A DNA stretch of 64,000 nt from a bacterium (GCA_024742755.1 JANSXW010000007.1:20013-84012), one strand, 5' to 3'; positions 37,245 through 48,764 are shown, counted from the first letter of the stretch. The notes: generated by a model from the sequence alone, not told the origin. A program made the numbers and translations.

Positions 37245-39098
37245 ATGCGAAGTTTAGTACAAGTCATTAGCACCCTGTTACTCCTGCTTGGGCCCTCTCC
37301 TGCATTTGGACAGGAAACACAACTCACTCCTCTTCAGCAATTGCTCATCTGGGAACATACTCCGGAAGAAGAACTACTGGCAACGCTTGGTGAATCCTAT
37401 CGCCCAATCATTAATCGCTGGGAGGCATGCCTTTCCGCAGGGGAATGTAACAACCTACCTACTGACAAAATACAGGCTATGCTTCAGGCGAGTATTCAGA
37501 AGCAATTGTACGATAGTGCACGTGTGGCAGAACAGTACCTGAACCTGGAGAAATGGCTCTTACTCGATACACTTAAAACCTATGCCCCCACACTTGCAGC
37601 AGACTCTGTAACCAGGCTCACCTCTAAAACCAGCCCGCTTCCCCAGGTTAAGAAGCTTTTATTGCCTCGGCCCCAGCCGCCAGCCCCGCTTTGGCTAAAA
37701 GTGGCAGACGACCTGCTCGTGAATACGGTTGAGGAAGAAGCTATTGAAACGGCCGTCCAAATGATCAAAACGGAACTCCAAAAACTGAAAGAAACCGATA
37801 CGCTGATTCATATCCTTTTCCCGGAGGTCAGCCGTCAAATACAAAACTACTCAGCGCGCATGCCCGCTACGCTGGCCATTCAACACTTTAAGGCAGCGCT
37901 GATCATGGATTATCAGCAGTTGGACGCCCGTTTCCCATTCGCTTTGCAACAGATGGGGCGATTAGACAGCCAAAGCGTTCAGATTATTGAAGAAGGAGAG
38001 TATTGGCTGGACCGCTACTGGCAGGGACATATCGAGCCACCTGTATTTGCAGATGATGCCCCCAGCAGTCTATCATTCCCTGTCAATAACTGGCTCACCT
38101 TCCTGAACGGTGCCTTCAATATAACTGCAGATCAGCCCTTGCACCCAATTGCGGTCAGGCAGCTCAGAGAGCGTGGTCGGCTCACTCAGCTTTGTAATTG
38201 GTGGGCGGGATTAAATGCTACAGCCACTACCTTCTCCCCTGCCTTACTTAATGATCTTCCGTACAAATACGCACAGGGTATGATCAGCTACCACCAGTTT
38301 ATCCGCAATGCCCGCATCCAAACAGGTACATCCCCGAGAGCAGATTTGTTAAAGGACTACATCAAAACTTTCCTGGACCTAAGAGGCTGCTTCCTCTCTC
38401 CTAAGGATGCGCTGGAGTCAGAACAGATCCTTAATGCAATCGCAAACCTCAGGTACAATAGCAAATCCAAACCTGCGCAGCATAAAGCGCTTATGGGCAT
38501 AGCCGAAACACTCGAACTCGATAATCACCCGCTTGTACTTTTACTGGGCAATCTTGCCCTACAGGATGACCTCGATGACTTCCAACAAACCCTAAAGGAA
38601 ATTTACCTCCCTCATGCCAGCTTTTCCAGTTTGCGCAAAAACAAAAGAACCTATCTGCTGATGGGCTATGCCGGGCTTCATTCAGGACTTGAAACCAGCC
38701 TTCACCCCGACCGCAACCTCAAAGGCTTACACACGGCTATGGGGATTTGCGCAGGCCCGGCAGTTAGTATCGGCACGGGTAAATTCGCACACACCTTTTT
38801 GCTGCAGCTCATTGACCTCGGGGCTCCTTTTTCGTTTCTAATCAGAGATGCAGCGGAAATCCGGAGCGGGCAGTTTCCGGAAACTATCAATCTCGAGGCT
38901 GTGCTTTCTCCTGGAGCAGGGTATTTCCTGGGGCTCCAAAACACTCCGCTCAGCCTGGGGCTAAGCGCAGCTATGGTCAATAATGGCCGGACAGACCCAA
39001 GTGGCCTCGAAACCGATATACTCAGGTTCAACCTCGGGTTGTACCTCGATTTCCCCATTTACACATTAGCCCAAATCCGTCATTCATTTACTCATTAA
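37245..39098 (+). CDS. Hypothetical secreted protein
   Basis: 617 aa; signal peptide LVQVISTLLLLLGPSPAFGQ; C-terminus reads like outer-membrane strands. Confidence 0.7.
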   Translation: MRSLVQVISTLLLLLGPSPAFGQETQLTPLQQLLIWEHTPEEELLATLGESYRPIINRWEACLSAGECNNLPTDKIQAMLQASIQKQLYDSARVAEQYLNLEKWLLLDTLKTYAPTLAADSVTRLTSKTSPLPQVKKLLLPRPQPPAPLWLKVADDLLVNTVEEEAIETAVQMIKTELQKLKETDTLIHILFPEVSRQIQNYSARMPATLAIQHFKAALIMDYQQLDARFPFALQQMGRLDSQSVQIIEEGEYWLDRYWQGHIEPPVFADDAPSSLSFPVNNWLTFLNGAFNITADQPLHPIAVRQLRERGRLTQLCNWWAGLNATATTFSPALLNDLPYKYAQGMISYHQFIRNARIQTGTSPRADLLKDYIKTFLDLRGCFLSPKDALESEQILNAIANLRYNSKSKPAQHKALMGIAETLELDNHPLVLLLGNLALQDDLDDFQQTLKEIYLPHASFSSLRKNKRTYLLMGYAGLHSGLETSLHPDRNLKGLHTAMGICAGPAVSIGTGKFAHTFLLQLIDLGAPFSFLIRDAAEIRSGQFPETINLEAVLSPGAGYFLGLQNTPLSLGLSAAMVNNGRTDPSGLETDILRFNLGLYLDFPIYTLAQIRHSFTH

Positions 39099-39109
39099 AA
39101 ACAACAAAT

Positions 39110-40903
39110 ATGCTTTTTAGAAAGGCTTTACTCCTGTGTCTCAGTTTCTGGATCCTGACGGTCCATACTATTGCTCAAACCAGCCAGCAGGCGGTATCTT
39201 TCACCAACAAGGGTACTGAGAAAGTGTGGGCTTACGCCTACCATGAAGGCTGTTTTGAAAGCGCTATCCCTGCCCTGTGCTATAATAGCCAACTGGACGC
39301 CGGACAAGAAGTAAGTTATACCCCACCTGATATTATCCGCAACTGGGACACCTTCAAGGAGGTATTTCAATTTGTAGGGGACGCGCTGATGATTGTAGCC
39401 GGGCTGGTCGTCACCGTTGTCACTGCAGGGGCCGGTGCCGAGGTGGAAGCGGGTGCTATTGCTGAGGTAGCGGCCACTACCGGTGCTGAAGCTGGCCTTG
39501 ACGCCGTTGACGCTGCAGAAGCTATAGAAACGGCCGCCGAAACCACCGAAATGTCTATTGAATCCACGTCTGAAGTAGCTACCGAATTCCCGGAAGTGTT
39601 TAGTGCAGCGGAGGAAGGCGGAGATACAGCAGCAGATATGGGCAGCGAAGCACTCACTCAAACAGAGGGGCAAACAGAAGACCTTGCTGAGGATGCCGCT
39701 GATACAGCTGATGACGCTGCCGATGGTGAGCAGAGCGACTCCGGCAGCGATACAGACAGCGACTCCGATAGTGGGGATGATAGCGCTGACGATCAAAACG
39801 ATAATGATGCTAATAGTCAGGATGAGGACACAGACAATGAGGGCGATGACGAGGAGGATGAGGACGAAGATGACTGCAATTCCAACGCTTCCTCAGCCAC
39901 ACAAAACCTCACCAAAGCTAAAAATGCCATATCAAAAGCTAAGAGCCTGTACAAAAACATCAAAGCGAAAATCCCTGACCCCATGAAAGAGACTTTTAAA
40001 GAACTCCGCAGTCAGTATCAATTTGTCAAAGGCCCGGCAGAAAAACTATATGCCAAAGTCCTCTCTGATGATGACGGAGGAAGCGACCACCCTATTGACT
40101 ATGAGTCTGATGCCCCTCCTACCGATGATATGGCCTGCGAGCTTAAAGCGCTCAACAAAATCGCAAAAGACGCCAAAAAACTAACGGACAAGGGGTTCAA
40201 ACTGATTAAGGATTTGGATAAAGAAGACCGCCAGAAGGTTAGCCACCTTTACTCATTAGTCCATATGGGGCTCGGGCTCCCTGTACCCATTCAGACTTGG
40301 AGCAAAAACCGGGAATGGGCCTATGTGGTAGAAAGCGAGGGTGCACTTTATACCGCTAAAGCAGGGCATATTTCCCTGGACGGCAACACGTTTGAACTCA
40401 TCTGGTACCCTCCCGGAGATACGACCGGCAACCATGATGTATACTGGGCTAAATATGCAGGCCCCACTTACCCCGCAGGAACCTATTATAAAGGCAATAC
40501 CCAGCCCCTTCCTCAGGTTGAAAACTTGCAGGAAAGTTATACCGTTGACAATAACAACCTGATTTCCGTTAGCAAAGTAGCCAGAACTAACAAAACCATT
40601 CAATTCTCGCTCAAAACCAACGAAAGTGTAACCTGGTGGAAAGGTATTCAGGTGTTTTACCATACCAAGGATGGGTCCATAAAATCCCAAATTATCCAAA
40701 CCCAGGGTGATGACCACCAGGTATGGGGCGATGTTATCGACTTATCCGATGTTGACCCTTACCCACCTCTGACGGTACAGTTCTGGAAAGCGAAAGCTTT
40801 TGGAGTACATACTCAGGTAGGCAGTGACACCTTCTCTATTGAGGATATCATTAACAAAGATGGCAATGGCAACACCGTAGTCTTCTTTTGGGAAAACGAT
40901 TGA
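39110..40903 (+). CDS. Hypothetical secreted protein with an acidic Asp/Ser/Glu low-complexity linker
   Basis: 597 aa; signal peptide; SDSGSDTDSDSDSGDDSADDQNDNDANSQDEDTDNEGDDEEDEDEDD. Confidence 0.7.
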   Translation: MLFRKALLLCLSFWILTVHTIAQTSQQAVSFTNKGTEKVWAYAYHEGCFESAIPALCYNSQLDAGQEVSYTPPDIIRNWDTFKEVFQFVGDALMIVAGLVVTVVTAGAGAEVEAGAIAEVAATTGAEAGLDAVDAAEAIETAAETTEMSIESTSEVATEFPEVFSAAEEGGDTAADMGSEALTQTEGQTEDLAEDAADTADDAADGEQSDSGSDTDSDSDSGDDSADDQNDNDANSQDEDTDNEGDDEEDEDEDDCNSNASSATQNLTKAKNAISKAKSLYKNIKAKIPDPMKETFKELRSQYQFVKGPAEKLYAKVLSDDDGGSDHPIDYESDAPPTDDMACELKALNKIAKDAKKLTDKGFKLIKDLDKEDRQKVSHLYSLVHMGLGLPVPIQTWSKNREWAYVVESEGALYTAKAGHISLDGNTFELIWYPPGDTTGNHDVYWAKYAGPTYPAGTYYKGNTQPLPQVENLQESYTVDNNNLISVSKVARTNKTIQFSLKTNESVTWWKGIQVFYHTKDGSIKSQIIQTQGDDHQVWGDVIDLSDVDPYPPLTVQFWKAKAFGVHTQVGSDTFSIEDIINKDGNGNTVVFFWEND

Positions 40904-41018: not shown

Positions 41019-43586
41019 CTACCACGCATCAGGGGGTACGATCACCTCTAAAGCCTGCCCATACCGGCTGGGCAAAAACAGGATTTCAACGTACCCTGTA
41101 TGCTCTGCTTCCTCCAATTTTGGTGGTATCGCCTTAACCGATATCCAATACCGCCCGGGGGCTATCCCAGTAAACGAAAAATAGCCATCTGGCTCCGGAG
41201 TAGTTTGTGCGGTTAATTCCCCGTTGGCATTATACAGGTAAAGACGGGTATCAGGCAACCTGCGTTCTTGCGTTTGCCGATCTAAAGGCAAATACCCGAA
41301 AGCCTCATGAAATGGCAAAATCGGCACCGCTACTGTTTTGTACTGATTCGGATCAGGTACGACTCTAATCATATCCCAGGCTGGTTTCCAGAAAATATCT
41401 TCAAAGAAACCAGCGGAAAGACTTATTTGAGCCCCTTCCGATGCACTTAGCCCACTAATCAGCAGCACCGTGTCCTTTGTCTGTACGGTTACCTTACCCC
41501 TTCGAATGCCTGCTTCCAGTCCTTCAGCAGCATACTCCCCCTCATCCCAGTGATGATTATGATTGTTGTCTACGAACGGGCGCAGCAAAATGCCTGAGCG
41601 ATTCTTCGACGACTCTGCCTGCCAATCAAGCCCTTCCCTGAAACCACTGTAAAATACACTACCGGAGACGGATTGGTTCAGAGACATTCGTTCTCCAGAC
41701 CGCATCGCATTTCCTGTGAGCTGCATCGGACCTAACGTAAGGCTATAATTCACCCCGAAGGTGTTTTGCCCCCGAGCAAAACCACGGCTAAAATTGAGCC
41801 CTGCTCTTGACCGCTTTGAAAACTGCCTGGCCAGACTGGCCCGAAGACCGTTGACCGCAAACTCCGAGAGGTTCACCAGAAAATCCCCTCTCACTGTAAA
41901 ACCTTTCTTCCAGTGCTTCGACAGATTGAGCTGAGCGGCCAAACTGAGCCCTGAAAAAGCAGAATAGCTGCCCATGGCTTCCAATCGGACGGATACCTCC
42001 CTTCGCAGTTTGGTATCCGTCCTAAGCCTGTACTGATGCCTCCAGGGCCCGGTATTCTTCATCCAGTTGCCCTGTAGCTGTATGCTGATTTTTCGCTGCC
42101 CTAACTTTAAACCTGTTCTGAAATTGATTTCGTGCCGTTCCCGATTGGGTATAAATAAACCCTCCCAGTTTGCATTGTAACGTTCTCCACTGTACTGTGC
42201 CGACCAGCCCTTGAATAAACGCAGCCCTAAACGAACCGACTGCCGGAACCCCGGTGCGATGCCTGCCTCTATGGATAACCGATCAGAAGGTTGCAATAAA
42301 GCTTCCACGAAATAAACCGGCAAGCCACTGCGAAAGCCGCTGTAACTTTCCAGCCCACCCCGCATCATCAAATGGGGCGTTATCCCCATTTCAAGGTCGA
42401 GCTTATGATAGCTGCCGCTGCCCCCACGAAACAGCAGGCTGCTTTCTATCGTATACCCTGGTTTCCAGGGTTCTGGTATTTGAGCGGGCAGATAGTAGGA
42501 CTCCTGATGAGTATGTTCCTCTCCGGAAGGCCCCAGTTCACGAATGGCAAACCGGTTCATTCCTGCCCGTAGCGGGATCTCAAACCTGTAGCTCCCCTTC
42601 TCACCCACTTGCTGCCAGGATAGCAGCTGATGCCCGCGGTACACCTCCACTACCCATCCCGGCACTGTGCTCCCACGGATCGTGTACACGGGGGGAGCCT
42701 CTCGATCAGAAACGGCATCTTTCTGCAACCGTACTCCCGCCCGGGGCTGAAACAGCTGCAGCATGCCCTGCCCCTGACCCAGTATACCTGCTTCCACACC
42801 GCTAAAGTAAGTACGCTGTTGTGGCGCGTATGACCACCGCAGGTTCTGTTGTTCCCACAAAAAGGCTTGCCCCTCTGTATGCTGCAGGTTGATTAATGTA
42901 CGCCCCCCCAGAAGCTCCAGCCCTGCATCTACACGGGCCTGCAAAAGCCCTTGCCCATTACCACTACTGCGCCAGTTGACCTGATAGTCTGCCCCTCCCC
43001 CTCTCAACCAGTGGCGCTGCCGGCCAATAACGGTATCAGGTATTTCGGTCCGTGCGCTTTCCTGATTGCCCAGCCTTTCCCTCGTCTTCTGTAGCCTGGC
43101 ATTACGCATAACCGGCAGTTCTACGGATGGCTTCATTTTTGCCGTTAGCGAACGCAGGTCAAAAGTGGTGGGCAGCCGGAATGCACGGCCCCAGTATTCC
43201 AGCTCCATGTAGCAGCTTCCATCGCTGTGCATAGTGAGGGCGGAGGCTTCCAGCTGGAACAGGGTATCGAAAACAAATAAGGACTTTTCGGGAAAAGAAA
43301 GCTGGTAAGGATTGTCCTCCCGCAGGTAAAACCCACTAAGCGTCTGTGGCAGGGTGTCAGGGCCTACCTTAACATGGAAAGCCTGCAGCAGCGCCCGTAC
43401 GGGCAGCTTGACGGTGTTGGTTTCAAGATCAATCAGGGCAGACACATTGAATGCGCCAGCTTCCTCGACCTCCAGGCGCAGCACAAATTCTTCTTCCGAT
43501 GCCTGTGCCCGGGCCTTCCCCTGCAGGGCTGCCAAAAGTAACAGTACAAAACCAATGCGAAGTATGCCGTGAGCGAAAAAAGGCAT
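41019..43586 (-). CDS. Outer-membrane usher-like protein (PapC/TcfC-type, divergent)
   Basis: 855 aa; signal peptide; N-terminal domain, long beta-barrel region, internal GSTVPGWVVEVYRGHQLLSWQQVGEKGSYRFEIPLRAGMNRFAIRELGPSG (usher plug/middle-domain style), C-terminal carboxypeptidase-like segment. Confidence 0.6.
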   Translation of the reverse strand: MPFFAHGILRIGFVLLLLAALQGKARAQASEEEFVLRLEVEEAGAFNVSALIDLETNTVKLPVRALLQAFHVKVGPDTLPQTLSGFYLREDNPYQLSFPEKSLFVFDTLFQLEASALTMHSDGSCYMELEYWGRAFRLPTTFDLRSLTAKMKPSVELPVMRNARLQKTRERLGNQESARTEIPDTVIGRQRHWLRGGGADYQVNWRSSGNGQGLLQARVDAGLELLGGRTLINLQHTEGQAFLWEQQNLRWSYAPQQRTYFSGVEAGILGQGQGMLQLFQPRAGVRLQKDAVSDREAPPVYTIRGSTVPGWVVEVYRGHQLLSWQQVGEKGSYRFEIPLRAGMNRFAIRELGPSGEEHTHQESYYLPAQIPEPWKPGYTIESSLLFRGGSGSYHKLDLEMGITPHLMMRGGLESYSGFRSGLPVYFVEALLQPSDRLSIEAGIAPGFRQSVRLGLRLFKGWSAQYSGERYNANWEGLFIPNRERHEINFRTGLKLGQRKISIQLQGNWMKNTGPWRHQYRLRTDTKLRREVSVRLEAMGSYSAFSGLSLAAQLNLSKHWKKGFTVRGDFLVNLSEFAVNGLRASLARQFSKRSRAGLNFSRGFARGQNTFGVNYSLTLGPMQLTGNAMRSGERMSLNQSVSGSVFYSGFREGLDWQAESSKNRSGILLRPFVDNNHNHHWDEGEYAAEGLEAGIRRGKVTVQTKDTVLLISGLSASEGAQISLSAGFFEDIFWKPAWDMIRVVPDPNQYKTVAVPILPFHEAFGYLPLDRQTQERRLPDTRLYLYNANGELTAQTTPEPDGYFSFTGIAPGRYWISVKAIPPKLEEAEHTGYVEILFLPSRYGQALEVIVPPDAW

Positions 43587-43592
43587 AGCGGC

Positions 43593-44273
43593 TTAATTGG
43601 TGACTGTGACCCGAAGCAGCATCCGGATAACTCCACCCGGACGGATACCAGAAGGGACTAATAGCCGGCCTCCAATACGCAACTTGCATCCGGCCCCTGT
43701 ACCGCCCGTGCAGTCCACTTCCCATTCAGGTTCAAAGAGGGCACCATAAGTAGCAGGCCATTCTTCTGCGGTGACTTGTATATTTGGCAGCCGCCCACCC
43801 GGCGGCAGACAACCGTTTATATGGAGAATAGCCGGGCGTACACCAGCACCAACCGAAATCAGCCCTCCTGATACAGAGACCTCCCCGGCAGGGCTAAGCT
43901 GCAAGACACCGCCCTCTTCTCCTGCGTACAACTGCCCAAGACCGAGTTCCTGAGCGACCCAAAGAGAGGCGTTCACACCCGTATTAGACGAGGTGGAATG
44001 GATAGGTGCCCATAGACCGGAGCTGCTGCTTTCAAGAGAAAAAGGCACTTGTTCCAGTGTCAATGCGGCAGCTCCTTCACGCTGATAATAAGACTTGGAC
44101 ACGCCAGGATGTACAGAAGCAGCCCGGAGGTTGGGAGCGCTGCGAGGCACCTGCGCCTGGCCATAGCTCGTAGCTGCAAAGCAAGAATGCATAAAGCAGG
44201 CCAGCAACAGCAAGAGAAGAGGCGACCATTCCACCTGCATTCTTACGCCACCTTGTAAAGCCTTTCCTGCCAT
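43593..44273 (-). CDS. Secreted DUF4402-like subunit
   Basis: Internal Met at 44273 (MAGKALQGGVRMQVEWSPLLLLLLACFMHSCFA) gives a signal peptide. C-terminal EWPATYGALFEPEWEVDCTGGTGAGCKLRIGGRLLVPSGIRPGGVIRMLLRVTVTN resembles DUF4402 ends. Confidence 0.6.
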   Translation of the reverse strand: MAGKALQGGVRMQVEWSPLLLLLLACFMHSCFAATSYGQAQVPRSAPNLRAASVHPGVSKSYYQREGAAALTLEQVPFSLESSSSGLWAPIHSTSSNTGVNASLWVAQELGLGQLYAGEEGGVLQLSPAGEVSVSGGLISVGAGVRPAILHINGCLPPGGRLPNIQVTAEEWPATYGALFEPEWEVDCTGGTGAGCKLRIGGRLLVPSGIRPGGVIRMLLRVTVTN

Positions 44274-44283
44274 CAGCCTTCCG

Positions 44284-45177
44284 TTACCTGGGGATATCGT
44301 AAAGGGCTTCCGCAAAAATAGCAGGCTTGCGCTTTTCCATGTTTTCCATAAAACGGATACGGAGCTGGCTTTCTGAAAGCAATTCAGCACCTTCCGGCAA
44401 ATCAAGCGGCAAGCTGAAGTTGCGAAAAAGATTGGGCGTAAAGACCGTAACGCCCTTTCGCTTGACCACGGATAGCGTTTTTTGATCGGGCCTCAACAGT
44501 TCTACCAGGAGGTCACCGTGCAGCGACTGATTGCCACTGCGGTTGATCCGGAAGCTCAGCCTGGGCGGGCTTCCTTCTTCTCCGGGGAGCAGCTGCAGGC
44601 TATCGATGGCAGCACTGCCGCTGGTCTCTCCATGACGTACGATGACCGGTATGGTGATGTTAAACAGCATACTAACAGACACACCCAATTCTCCATTTTC
44701 TTCGGCAGCCACATTTGGGTTCCGCGCCGCAGCTTCCTGAGCCACATCCACCTGCCGGAAACTAAGATGAGACCGGTACTCACCTGGTGCAAGATCAGGC
44801 CGGCTGCGAAACTGTACCCGTAGCGTTTGCGACTCTTTAGGCTGCAGGGTGAAACGGCGGGGGAACAGGCGGAGGTAAGGGGACGCGGGCCGGTCTTCCG
44901 CCCGGAGGGTATCTATTTCAATGTATCTGCCATCCGGGCTCACCCCGTATTCCACAAAAGAAGCTACATAGGTCAGAGGCGCATCGCTTACATTGAGCAG
45001 ATTAAGCTCCGCCACGTTTTTGCGGCCTTCGAGGACGATGCGCTTGGGGGTCAGTAGCAGCCCGCCTTGTGCTATTGCAGTGCCGGACACTGCTATGAAT
45101 ACGATTAGGAGCACACCAATGCTCCGTAGATTTACGGTCTGTTTGCTCATGAGGGTGTTTTTTATGTCCAAAAACAA
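44284..45177 (-). CDS. PapD-like periplasmic pilus chaperone
   Basis: 297 aa; RIVLEGRKNVAELNLLNVSDAPLTYVASFVEYG, LRLFPRRFTLQPKESQTLRVQFRSRPDLAPGEYRSHLSF. Confidence 0.75.
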   Translation of the reverse strand: MFLDIKNTLMSKQTVNLRSIGVLLIVFIAVSGTAIAQGGLLLTPKRIVLEGRKNVAELNLLNVSDAPLTYVASFVEYGVSPDGRYIEIDTLRAEDRPASPYLRLFPRRFTLQPKESQTLRVQFRSRPDLAPGEYRSHLSFRQVDVAQEAAARNPNVAAEENGELGVSVSMLFNITIPVIVRHGETSGSAAIDSLQLLPGEEGSPPRLSFRINRSGNQSLHGDLLVELLRPDQKTLSVVKRKGVTVFTPNLFRNFSLPLDLPEGAELLSESQLRIRFMENMEKRKPAIFAEALYDIPR

Positions 45178-45285
45178 AGCCCGCCAAAGTCCCGGTTACG
45201 GCGCTTGCTGTATTTGCACAGTGAAGGGAACAGCAGCTTGGGGCAAGGGCATAAAAACACCCCTGGCCCCACTGCCCTGAGCTTA

Positions 45286-45834
45286 TCAATAGGCCACAGT
45301 GATATCAATCGTTCCTGTGTAGGCGCCAGCCGGATCATCTGAGTCAATTCCACCGAGTGTGCCTCCCACATAAATTGGATCGGTATCGCCCAGAGCACTA
45401 AGCGTCACAACGCTTGAGAGGTTTCCGTCAGAATTGAGCCCAAACCCATCTACAGCAGTAGCGAGTTTGAACTTCGCGTCGGTATTAGTACCATGAGTCA
45501 GGTCTACACTCCCACTTATAGTTATAGTTACATTAGTATTTGGAGAGCCAGCAACCTGAAATGAACCTCTTACTGGTGATGATACAGTAGCTATCTCTGG
45601 AAGACCAATGCTGTTGCCGCTATATGGATCAAGGGTAAAAGAATTATCTATATCAAGAGCTTCAGCCGTTAGAACAAACGAACCTAGTTGTAAAGCATTT
45701 ACGTTGGTAATTTGTAAGCCTGACAGTAACTCTGCAGTGACGTCCATTGTGCTCGTAGCAGACTGTGCCATAGCAGCCGTAGCCGACATCACAGCCACAA
45801 AGCTCAGCGCAAAAAACAGTTTCAATTTTTTCAT
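45286..45834 (-). CDS. DUF4402 domain protein (candidate pilin/major subunit)
   Basis: 182 aa; signal peptide, C-terminal GGIDSDDPAGAYTGTIDITVAY. Confidence 0.8.
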   Translation of the reverse strand: MKKLKLFFALSFVAVMSATAAMAQSATSTMDVTAELLSGLQITNVNALQLGSFVLTAEALDIDNSFTLDPYSGNSIGLPEIATVSSPVRGSFQVAGSPNTNVTITISGSVDLTHGTNTDAKFKLATAVDGFGLNSDGNLSSVVTLSALGDTDPIYVGGTLGGIDSDDPAGAYTGTIDITVAY

Positions 45835-46039: not shown

Positions 46040-46097
46040 AGTGTCCCAATACCTGAAAAAAAAGTGGGACACTGCATTTTTTCAGGTATTGGGACAC
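46040..46097. repeat. 21-bp perfect inverted repeat with a third, competing arm
   Basis: GTGTCCCAATACCTGAAAAAA (46041-46061) / TTTTTTCAGGTATTGGGACAC (46077-46097); loop contains TGGGACACT, which also pairs with AGTGTCCCA. Confidence 0.85.
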
Positions 46098-46394: not shown

Positions 46395-48764
46395 ATGCAT
46401 CAAACACTGACATTAGTCCTTATTTGGATTTTGCTGTCAACCCCACTGTATTCCCAGGTGGCACTGCCGGTTTCCTTTCAGGATAGTGTCCAAAGGGTCC
46501 TGCAATCGGCAGCCTCTCCTTACGAAAAGATAACAATCTATCAAGCTGTAATAGACAAGGTTCTGGCCTCAGATCAGGCACTTGCCCGGCAGTATCTTGA
46601 GGGTCTGCAACAGCTGGCAAACGCCACAAGAGACACAGCAGCACTCGCCTACGTTTTCGAAAAAGAAGCCAGCTTGTCTTATATGGCCGGCAATCTTCAG
46701 GAGGCAAGCCAAAGCTTTCAGGAGGCATGCCAGTCTTATGAAAAGGCCGGTTTAGCAGGGCCCGCGATCATGGCTTGTACCAAAAGTGGCATTATGCTGA
46801 GTCTCATGGGCAGGCAGGCTGCAGCGGGAAGTATTTATCAGGACCAATTGGCTAAAGCCAGGGCCCTGGCGCTCAAGCCTCAGCAAGCCTACCTCTACAA
46901 TCAGCTGGGTACCCTCTATCATTATCAAGGGGCATCAGACTCTGCCGTGGGGTATTACGATATCAGTGCGCAAATGTACGCTGAGCTGACTGATACAGCC
47001 AACCTGCTGCGCCCGTTGTTCAACAAAGCCGTCCTGCTGAAAAGGAGCCGCCCTGGCGAAAGCCTGCAGACCTATCTGCGCATTTACGGCATTCGCGAAA
47101 AGCAGGGGGCCGTTCCGGAAATGGTCAAGGCATTACAGGCCATTGGTGATCTGCAGGAAAACAACAATGAGCTGGTCAAGGCTTTTCAAAGTTATCAGCA
47201 AGCCTATCAGCTGTGCCAAGATTACAATTATCAGATTGAGCTGCCGAACATCCTTACCGGGCTGGCAAGCCTTAAAATGGATCAGTATGATCATGATGAA
47301 GCCCTGTCCTATACACAGGAAGCGGTGAGCGTAGCCAGGTCCAGCGGGCAATCACAGGGACTGCTCAATGCCTTATCTGTTCAGGCTTCGGTGTTGTTTC
47401 ATCTGGAGGACGAAGTGCAGGCACTGAGCGTCCTTGATGAAGTATTGTCCATTGCCGCTGCCACCGGGCTTCAGGCCGCCGCAGTACAGGCACAGATCAA
47501 GAAGGCCTATATTCTTTCGGAGATGGGACAACACGGGCCCGCCAATGAGGCACTGCGGGAGGCCGAAGTTCACCTGAAAAATGGCGTAGGCCAGGAACAC
47601 ACCCTTTATTTCCGCAAGACCAAAGCCCTGTTGGTTTTCCGCAGCGGACAATACAAAGCGGCGGCAGGCCTGGCACGCGAATCTTATCAGGCCTTTTTGG
47701 AACTGAACCGCTTCGGGGACGCCCTGGGGTCATTGGAGCTGCTGCTGGAAGCCTACGAAAGCAGCCGGCAATACGAGCAGGCGGTTGCTTTGCTGAGCCC
47801 ATACCGCTGGCTTTCCGATACGGTCAATCAGATCCGAAATATTACGGACTTGAAGGTGCAAAACCAGGAATTCGAATTCGAGCTGGAAAAGCAACAGCTG
47901 GAAGCCGAGCAGGCCAAACGGGAAGCGGTGTTGCAGGCAGCGGCAAGCCGCAATCAGGTCATCGGCTTGGCAGCGTTGCTGCTCGGGCTGATGGGGTTGG
48001 TTTTTGCCCTTTACACCCGGCGGCAGCGAGCGGTCATTCAGCAGCAGCGTGACGATTTGCTGGCTTTGAATCAAACGAAGGATCAGCTCTTTTCCATACT
48101 CGGGCACGATTTGAGAATACCAGCGATCAGCTTCCGGGGGATTGCCCAAAAAGTGAACTTCCTGCTCAGTGAAGCAGATTATCAGGGGCTGAAAAAGTTT
48201 GGTCAGCAGATAGAGGAGGATGCCAGCCAGCTGCTGCACATGACAGAAAACCTGCTGCAGTGGTCTCTTGGGCAGCGCAAAGCCCAAAAACATGCCCCGG
48301 TCAATTTCCAACTCCTGCATTTGGTGCAGGATACGCTGGCCTTCTTCCTCATCCGCTCCAAAGAGAAGCACATCACCATCAATACTGAAGGGCTGACCGA
48401 TGCCATCTGTTACAGCGACAAGCAAATGCTCGGCATCATCCTAAGGAATATCCTGGACAATGCTTTTAAATTCACCCCCCAGGGTGGGACTATACGAATT
48501 GATACAGCCCAGACGACGCCAGGGTTTGCAGACTTGACTATAGCGGACTCCGGGCCAGGCCTACCCGAATCAGTCCTAAAGCAAATCAACACTGAGGCTG
48601 CCCTAAACGACAGCACTTTAGGCTCTGCGAACGAAAAAGGCTTTGGGCTGGGGCTCAAACTGGTTTACAGCCTTTCCACGATCAACCAAACCCCCGTTGA
48701 GCTGATAGCGGGCGAAGGCCATAGCGGTGCGGCATTTAGGCTGCGCATCCCCCTTGCCACCTGA
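46395..48764 (+). CDS. TPR-containing sensor histidine kinase
   Basis: 789 aa; TPRs, TM, HisKA FSILGHDLRIPAISFRGI, N box ILRNILDNAFKFTP, G box ADSGPGLP. Confidence 0.92.
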   Translation: MHQTLTLVLIWILLSTPLYSQVALPVSFQDSVQRVLQSAASPYEKITIYQAVIDKVLASDQALARQYLEGLQQLANATRDTAALAYVFEKEASLSYMAGNLQEASQSFQEACQSYEKAGLAGPAIMACTKSGIMLSLMGRQAAAGSIYQDQLAKARALALKPQQAYLYNQLGTLYHYQGASDSAVGYYDISAQMYAELTDTANLLRPLFNKAVLLKRSRPGESLQTYLRIYGIREKQGAVPEMVKALQAIGDLQENNNELVKAFQSYQQAYQLCQDYNYQIELPNILTGLASLKMDQYDHDEALSYTQEAVSVARSSGQSQGLLNALSVQASVLFHLEDEVQALSVLDEVLSIAAATGLQAAAVQAQIKKAYILSEMGQHGPANEALREAEVHLKNGVGQEHTLYFRKTKALLVFRSGQYKAAAGLARESYQAFLELNRFGDALGSLELLLEAYESSRQYEQAVALLSPYRWLSDTVNQIRNITDLKVQNQEFEFELEKQQLEAEQAKREAVLQAAASRNQVIGLAALLLGLMGLVFALYTRRQRAVIQQQRDDLLALNQTKDQLFSILGHDLRIPAISFRGIAQKVNFLLSEADYQGLKKFGQQIEEDASQLLHMTENLLQWSLGQRKAQKHAPVNFQLLHLVQDTLAFFLIRSKEKHITINTEGLTDAICYSDKQMLGIILRNILDNAFKFTPQGGTIRIDTAQTTPGFADLTIADSGPGLPESVLKQINTEAALNDSTLGSANEKGFGLGLKLVYSLSTINQTPVELIAGEGHSGAAFRLRIPLAT

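Follow-up and report, generated by a model that had tools for sequence, protein, structure and literature searches.

Whether the chaperone-usher pathway extends to Bacteroidota is the question raised by a four-gene locus in a marine Bacteroidota genome, lying within the 64,000-nucleotide stretch of DNA analyzed here (GCA_024742755.1 JANSXW010000007.1:20013-84012), hereafter the window. One published account places classical as well as alternative systems only in beta- and gamma-proteobacteria, and archaic systems only in proteobacteria, Cyanobacteria and Deinococcus-Thermus (PMC4654587); another gives the range of the usher family as Proteobacteria, Spirochaetes, Cyanobacteria and Deinococcus-Thermus (PMC4827864); Bacteroidota is absent from the phyla given in both papers. 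The assembly helpers of P. gingivalis pili are unknown (PMC5789003). Our search of the literature, which left most subscription journals outside its scope and does not exclude an earlier mention, returned no mention of DUF4402 and nothing on point for chaperone-usher systems with Bacteroidota or Chitinophaga. Here we analyze the locus, which a first-pass annotation had interpreted as a divergent chaperone-usher system, and put forward that it very probably encodes a chaperone-usher fibre; the fibre has not been seen, and no chaperone-subunit or usher complex has been modelled.

The first-pass annotation placed four consecutive minus-strand genes at 41019-45834, and all four open reading frames (ORF) are present at those coordinates (Table 1). 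The likely starts are ATG 45834 for the pilin gene, ATG 45150 for the chaperone gene (the listed ORF opens at TTG 45177), ATG 44273 or 44240 for the P0002 gene (the listed 270-aa ORF opens at an upstream TTG within the chaperone gene) and ATG 43586 for the usher gene. Intergenic gaps amount to 135 nt between pilin and chaperone, 10 nt between chaperone and P0002, and 6 nt between P0002 and usher. The flanking genes, a histidine kinase at 46395 (+) and a gene ending at 40903 (+), diverge or converge and lie outside the unit. The four-gene order is kept in Phaeodactylibacter xiamenensis (locus L055, genome G001), a member of the same genus as the window genome, at identities spanning 44-76% (usher 57%, chaperone 76%) and beside different neighbours, which defines these four genes as the unit.

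Table 1. Features of the window locus (window coordinates) and T9SS-sorted large proteins of related loci (coordinates within each locus)
Feature	Position	Strand	Basis
DUF4402 protein (P0004), candidate major pilin	45286..45834	-	182 aa; PF14352 E=4.2e-14, AF2 model, PDB fold matches
Chaperone (P0003), periplasmic, PapD-like	44284..45150	-	288 aa; PapD_N in family, profile match, P106
Second DUF4402-related secreted protein (P0002), divergent, candidate tip/minor subunit	43593..44273	-	~226 aa; family HMM 25.5 bits, slot adjoining usher
Usher (P0001)	41019..43586	-	855 aa; AF2 model, PDB matches, profile match
Candidate donor strand, pilin residues 24-40, N-terminal extension	45715..45765	-	Inferred from known pilins
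Predicted usher plug, residues 300-366	42489..42689	-	Model, between barrel strands 6 and 7
Predicted usher C-terminal domains, residues 664-849, last CarboxypepD_reg/SdrD_B-like	41040..41597	-	Pfam and model
T9SS-sorted large protein	L087:6829-10587, L095:9793-12480, L109:2801-7333, L110:9854-14662		TIGR04183 over cut-off; L073 just under

Several features of the surrounding sequence may be recorded in passing. In the gap that separates the pilin gene from the chaperone gene, a GC-rich hairpin fares no better than shuffled sequence (z=-0.53). At 46041-46097, upstream of the pilin gene, there is an inverted repeat whose two perfect 21-bp arms enclose a loop of 15 nt (hairpin z=-7.1), an 18-mer of which is found elsewhere in the genome only as two direct copies on one contig (C389). 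Two adjoining genes at 37245-40903 (+), of 617 and 597 aa, have no Pfam family over cut-off, and the second (597 aa) contains a long acidic low-complexity stretch.

Three of the four genes draw only weak evidence from single sequences, but at the level of the family the evidence is strong. DUF4402 on P0004 was the sole match over a Pfam cut-off among the four proteins of the locus; DUF4402 on P0002 (E=0.017), PapD_N on P0003 (E=0.031) and CarboxypepD_reg at the C-terminus of P0001 (1.9e-5) fell short of theirs. Searched alone, P0001 yielded no Pfam match to Usher (PF00577), so that standard annotation misses the window usher, and no match in a PDB sequence search. Single-sequence searches (Pfam, NCBIfam, PDB) and a protein search in relatives nearly missed the usher/chaperone family, which was revealed by examining the neighbours of DUF4402 genes. 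All hhalign figures reported here were obtained in local mode with reversed-profile and barrel controls; the -glob option forces end-to-end alignments, and its figures were not used.

Among the four products, P0004 had been proposed as a candidate pilin, and its predicted fold is in keeping with that proposal. The AlphaFold2 (AF2) model (62 sequences, pLDDT 86) comprises a signal peptide, an N-terminal extension and a beta-sandwich, with no strand before residue 41 and residues 24-40 unstructured in the monomer. In the PDB, every one of its best 22 fold matches is a subunit of a chaperone-usher pilus; they include CfaB (the best), Caf1, CsuE, CsuA/B, CS17, FimG, FimA and the pilin domain of PapG. 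Taken singly, the matches are modest (best E=7e-4, TM about 0.3-0.45), and it is the consistency of the list that exceeds expectation for a generic Ig-like fold. By analogy with known pilins, residues 24-40 may constitute the donor strand, an inference for which strand complementation has not been modelled. The pilin profile found nothing useful among PDB sequences. P0002, initially described as a second DUF4402-like secreted protein, scores 25.5 bits against a DUF4402 family HMM built without it and its P. xiamenensis orthologue, and it occupies the slot preceding the usher gene, which in most named loci holds a DUF4402 protein. Scanning 62 subunits detected DUF4402 in 62/62 and SCPU (PF05229) in none. 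As a separate observation, a second match, to DUF2574 (best E=0.0009), is seen in two DUF4402 proteins of one alignment (A6); DUF2574 is the family to which YehE belongs, encoded beside the yeh fimbrial operon of E. coli K-12, and this is possibly a distant link.

The presence of capsule-forming Caf1 among the best pilin fold matches, and of only two subunit genes in the window locus, leaves room for a genuine chaperone-usher pair whose export product is a non-fibrous, capsule-like coat, as for Caf1, or just one or two subunits without any pilus. We regard this as unlikely, though still to be reckoned with: Caf1 is itself a linear polymer, and in many relatives a locus contains two to six genes for DUF4402 proteins, which is more like a multi-subunit fibre. 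A fibre remains our preferred reading.

Assignment of the chaperone to the PapD type, as suggested at first pass, is supported computationally by the family, with the reservation that homology of domain 2 is not shown by sequence. PapD_N is matched by 39 of 59 family members (best 4.5e-8), and the profile of domain 1 matches K-12 FimC-type (classical) chaperones at 94.6% and archaic chaperones at 94.5-94.7%; against PDB sequences, the best match of the chaperone profile is CfaA (E=0.056). The Mfa2 Pfam model reaches 11.7 bits on the window chaperone, below cut-off. A proline is invariant in all chaperone-usher chaperones (PMC4654587), and P106 is its counterpart, present in 19/19 aligned family members. 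Archaic and alternative chaperones are further distinguished by a domain-1 arginine on strand F and by a tyrosine and an arginine in domain 2, residues that make up the carboxylate anchor of non-classical chaperones (PMC4654587). Putative equivalents in the 19 aligned sequences are R135 or an arginine two residues on (17/19), R213 (14/19) and Y246 (17/19), the last position being a phenylalanine in both Phaeodactylibacter chaperones (window and P. xiamenensis). This mapping rests on alignment only, backed by the CfaA alignment, and is unproven. Hydropathy alternation in the G1 region is present, yet not unusual among strands, and the invariance of GEYRSH in alignment A5 is a product of the search pattern and was not used as evidence; the independently gathered alignment A2 was used.

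The gene set is not peculiar to the window genome and is widespread across Bacteroidota. DUF4402 occurs in 51 of 299 sampled Bacteroidota genomes and the usher, after exclusion of two fragmentary hits, in 65 of them: all 50 DUF4402 genomes other than the window genome, plus 15 others. This co-occurrence, like the predicted fold, favours DUF4402 as the pilin. The associated Fisher p (8e-44) ignores shared descent, and the plain counts therefore carry more weight. In 20 sampled DUF4402 loci, an usher homologue was found in 19 and a clear chaperone homologue in 18, and tblastn aligned the full length of P0001 with members from flavobacteria (21-24% identity, E about 1e-56, small database). Scanning GTDB genomes with the chaperone identified 316 relatives, from which 80 loci were kept, mostly from Bacteroidota (Chitinophaga, Pedobacter, Gramella and Bacteroidales MAGs), the remainder from Chlorobiota, Burkholderiales and single alphaproteobacterial, Nitrospinaceae and Zixibacteria records. 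Loci of relatives usually open with one to six DUF4402 genes followed by the chaperone gene, and close with a gene for a DUF4402-type protein and then the usher gene; between these two parts a large protein (400-3000 aa) is often encoded. One MAG labelled Clostridia (L059) carries a Bacteroidota-type locus with an usher nested among those of Bacteroidota and is probably a mislabelled bin; two loci of family f57 (L051, L052) form a divergent subgroup with shorter ushers (about 750 aa), a long branch and chaperones without the conserved domain-1 arginine.

Among the 100 nearest relatives searched (G000-G099), the usher occurs in only two, both of the window genus, though it is common elsewhere in the phylum, a pattern that may reflect either gain by transfer or many losses. 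Together with the small subunit set, this rarity could mean that the locus is a remnant, degenerate or recently captured, and non-functional in the window strain. We find this improbable, since the four frames are open and tightly spaced and their order is kept with P. xiamenensis at the divergence given above, all of which indicates a locus that is maintained.

Identification of the 855-aa product as an usher-like outer-membrane protein, as first proposed, would have been undermined had structure prediction lacked a 24-strand barrel or a plug, and both are present. The AF2 model of P0001 (38-sequence alignment, mean pLDDT 81, pTM 0.60) places a helix after the N-terminal domain (31-143), then six barrel strands (194-289), an insert of six strands, the first at 300-306 and the last at 357-366, eighteen further barrel strands (376-646; 6 + 18 = 24) and two small C-terminal domains. 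In PapC and FimD, too, the barrel has 24 strands and the plug follows strand 6. Compared by Foldseek with 350,542 PDB chains, the model finds FimD or PapC in all of its best 19 matches (E 1.6e-23 to 6.4e-8), the first non-usher match following at 1.6e-6, with other barrels among subsequent matches. When the usher family is aligned profile to profile with six ushers of E. coli K-12, the match is 97.9% (alignment A1, E=5.7e-13) and 97.4% (A4), against 0.8-1.4% for reversed profiles and at most 2.2% for FhuA, LptD and BamA. The alignment with classical ushers spans barrel and plug; homology of the N-terminal domain to known ushers is not shown by sequence. One usher of the family, G268/L146, scores above the Pfam threshold for Usher (56.4 bits, E=2.9e-15); PapC_C (PF13953) is found in none of 38 members. 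In 249 Bacteroidota genomes the Pfam Usher model matches only three, one of them over cut-off and all three through the family of the window usher, and the system has been overlooked as a result. P0001 is accordingly shown by computation to have both the architecture and the ancestry of an usher in the outer membrane, and the notion that it is another large barrel, LptD-like or a TonB-type transporter, beside unrelated secreted Ig-like proteins, to which the missing Usher match and the LptD-type barrels lower in its fold list (LptD 6e-6) lend some color, is largely refuted by the many orders of magnitude that part these from the best usher match, by the control profile scores and by the strict linkage of usher to chaperone and DUF4402.

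Computation supports the identities of the usher and chaperone families, the fold of the subunit, the conservation of a tight operon across the phylum, its distribution and the separateness of the usher clade. For the preferred reading, a chaperone-usher fibre, the following mechanism is inferred. P0004 and P0002 would enter the periplasm via Sec, each missing one beta-strand, and the chaperone would lend its G1 strand while holding the subunit C-terminus. The chaperone-subunit complex would then dock on the N-terminal domain of the usher, the plug would be displaced, and the fibre would be threaded through the barrel as the N-terminal extension of each following subunit takes part in donor-strand exchange. 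P0002 would probably be first, forming the tip, and P0004 would form the shaft of a fibre whose role, again by inference, is probably adhesion or biofilm formation. What such a fibre would bind is unknown, because the locus lacks the large adhesin gene present in many relatives.

The large protein encoded between chaperone and usher in these relatives was tested as a tip adhesin of two domains, the C-terminal one being DUF4402; this is unsupported, T9SS sorting domains being found instead. TIGR04183, the T9SS type A sorting domain, scores over cut-off in four of six such proteins scanned (Table 1), which puts a gene for T9SS cargo within a chaperone-usher operon. It is conceivable, but at present doubtful, that the loci represent a fourth major chaperone-usher clade, centred on Bacteroidota and Chlorobiota and working with T9SS in many members, in which a T9SS-sorted adhesin encoded between chaperone and usher would be brought to the DUF4402 fibre or displayed alongside it.

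In a maximum-likelihood tree, all 27 ushers of the window family fall on one side of a 100/99 branch, with classical and archaic ushers and EcpC opposite, and P0001 pairs with its P. xiamenensis counterpart and then with other Bacteroidota. The ushers thus form their own clade apart from the classical, archaic and EcpC ushers sampled. Archaic and classical ushers align with each other at 99.9% (E=1.5e-33), and the window family aligns with either at 95-98% (E 6e-8 to 6e-13). The sample includes two archaic ushers, from operons with confirmed SCPU subunits in a Polaromonas genome that also carries the DUF4402 type, and one alternative usher (EcpC, which has a long branch); Cyanobacteria and Deinococcus-Thermus are not represented, and designation as a fourth clade is therefore provisional. 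We judge the DUF4402-type system to be a deep branch of the chaperone-usher superfamily that had gone unrecognised. The presence of a chaperone-usher set in roughly one fifth of sampled Bacteroidota genomes widens the range of the pathway, suggests pilus subunit as a likely function for DUF4402 and, through the deep usher branch, provides material for working out usher evolution.

Comparison with known pili delineates what the window system shares with each. Type V (FimA/Mfa) pili likewise occur in Bacteroidota and are assembled by strand donation between subunits, but their subunits are lipoproteins and no usher or chaperone has been described for them (PMC5789003); P_gingi_FimA has no match in the window genome. 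With the alternative (alpha) systems, CFA/I and ECP, the locus shares CfaB as best PDB fold match of its pilin and CfaA as best PDB sequence match of its chaperone profile, whereas EcpC, the sole alternative usher tested and one with a long branch, does not group within the window usher family. The classical systems (type 1 Fim, P/Pap) have the same gene functions, the 24-strand usher with a plug after strand 6, a PapD-type chaperone and, going by the model, the pilin fold; in contrast to them, the window usher belongs to a separate clade, lacks PapC_C and ends in a CarboxypepD_reg/SdrD_B-like domain, and window-type loci encode DUF4402 rather than Fimbrial-family subunits. The archaic (sigma, Csu) systems resemble the window locus in chaperone domain 1, in a putatively corresponding arginine of that domain, placed by alignment only, and in the CsuE and CsuA/B matches to the pilin fold, but they use SCPU in place of DUF4402 subunits, and the window usher family, at 96.4% (E=1.2e-9) against archaic ushers, stands outside the group that these form with the classical ones.
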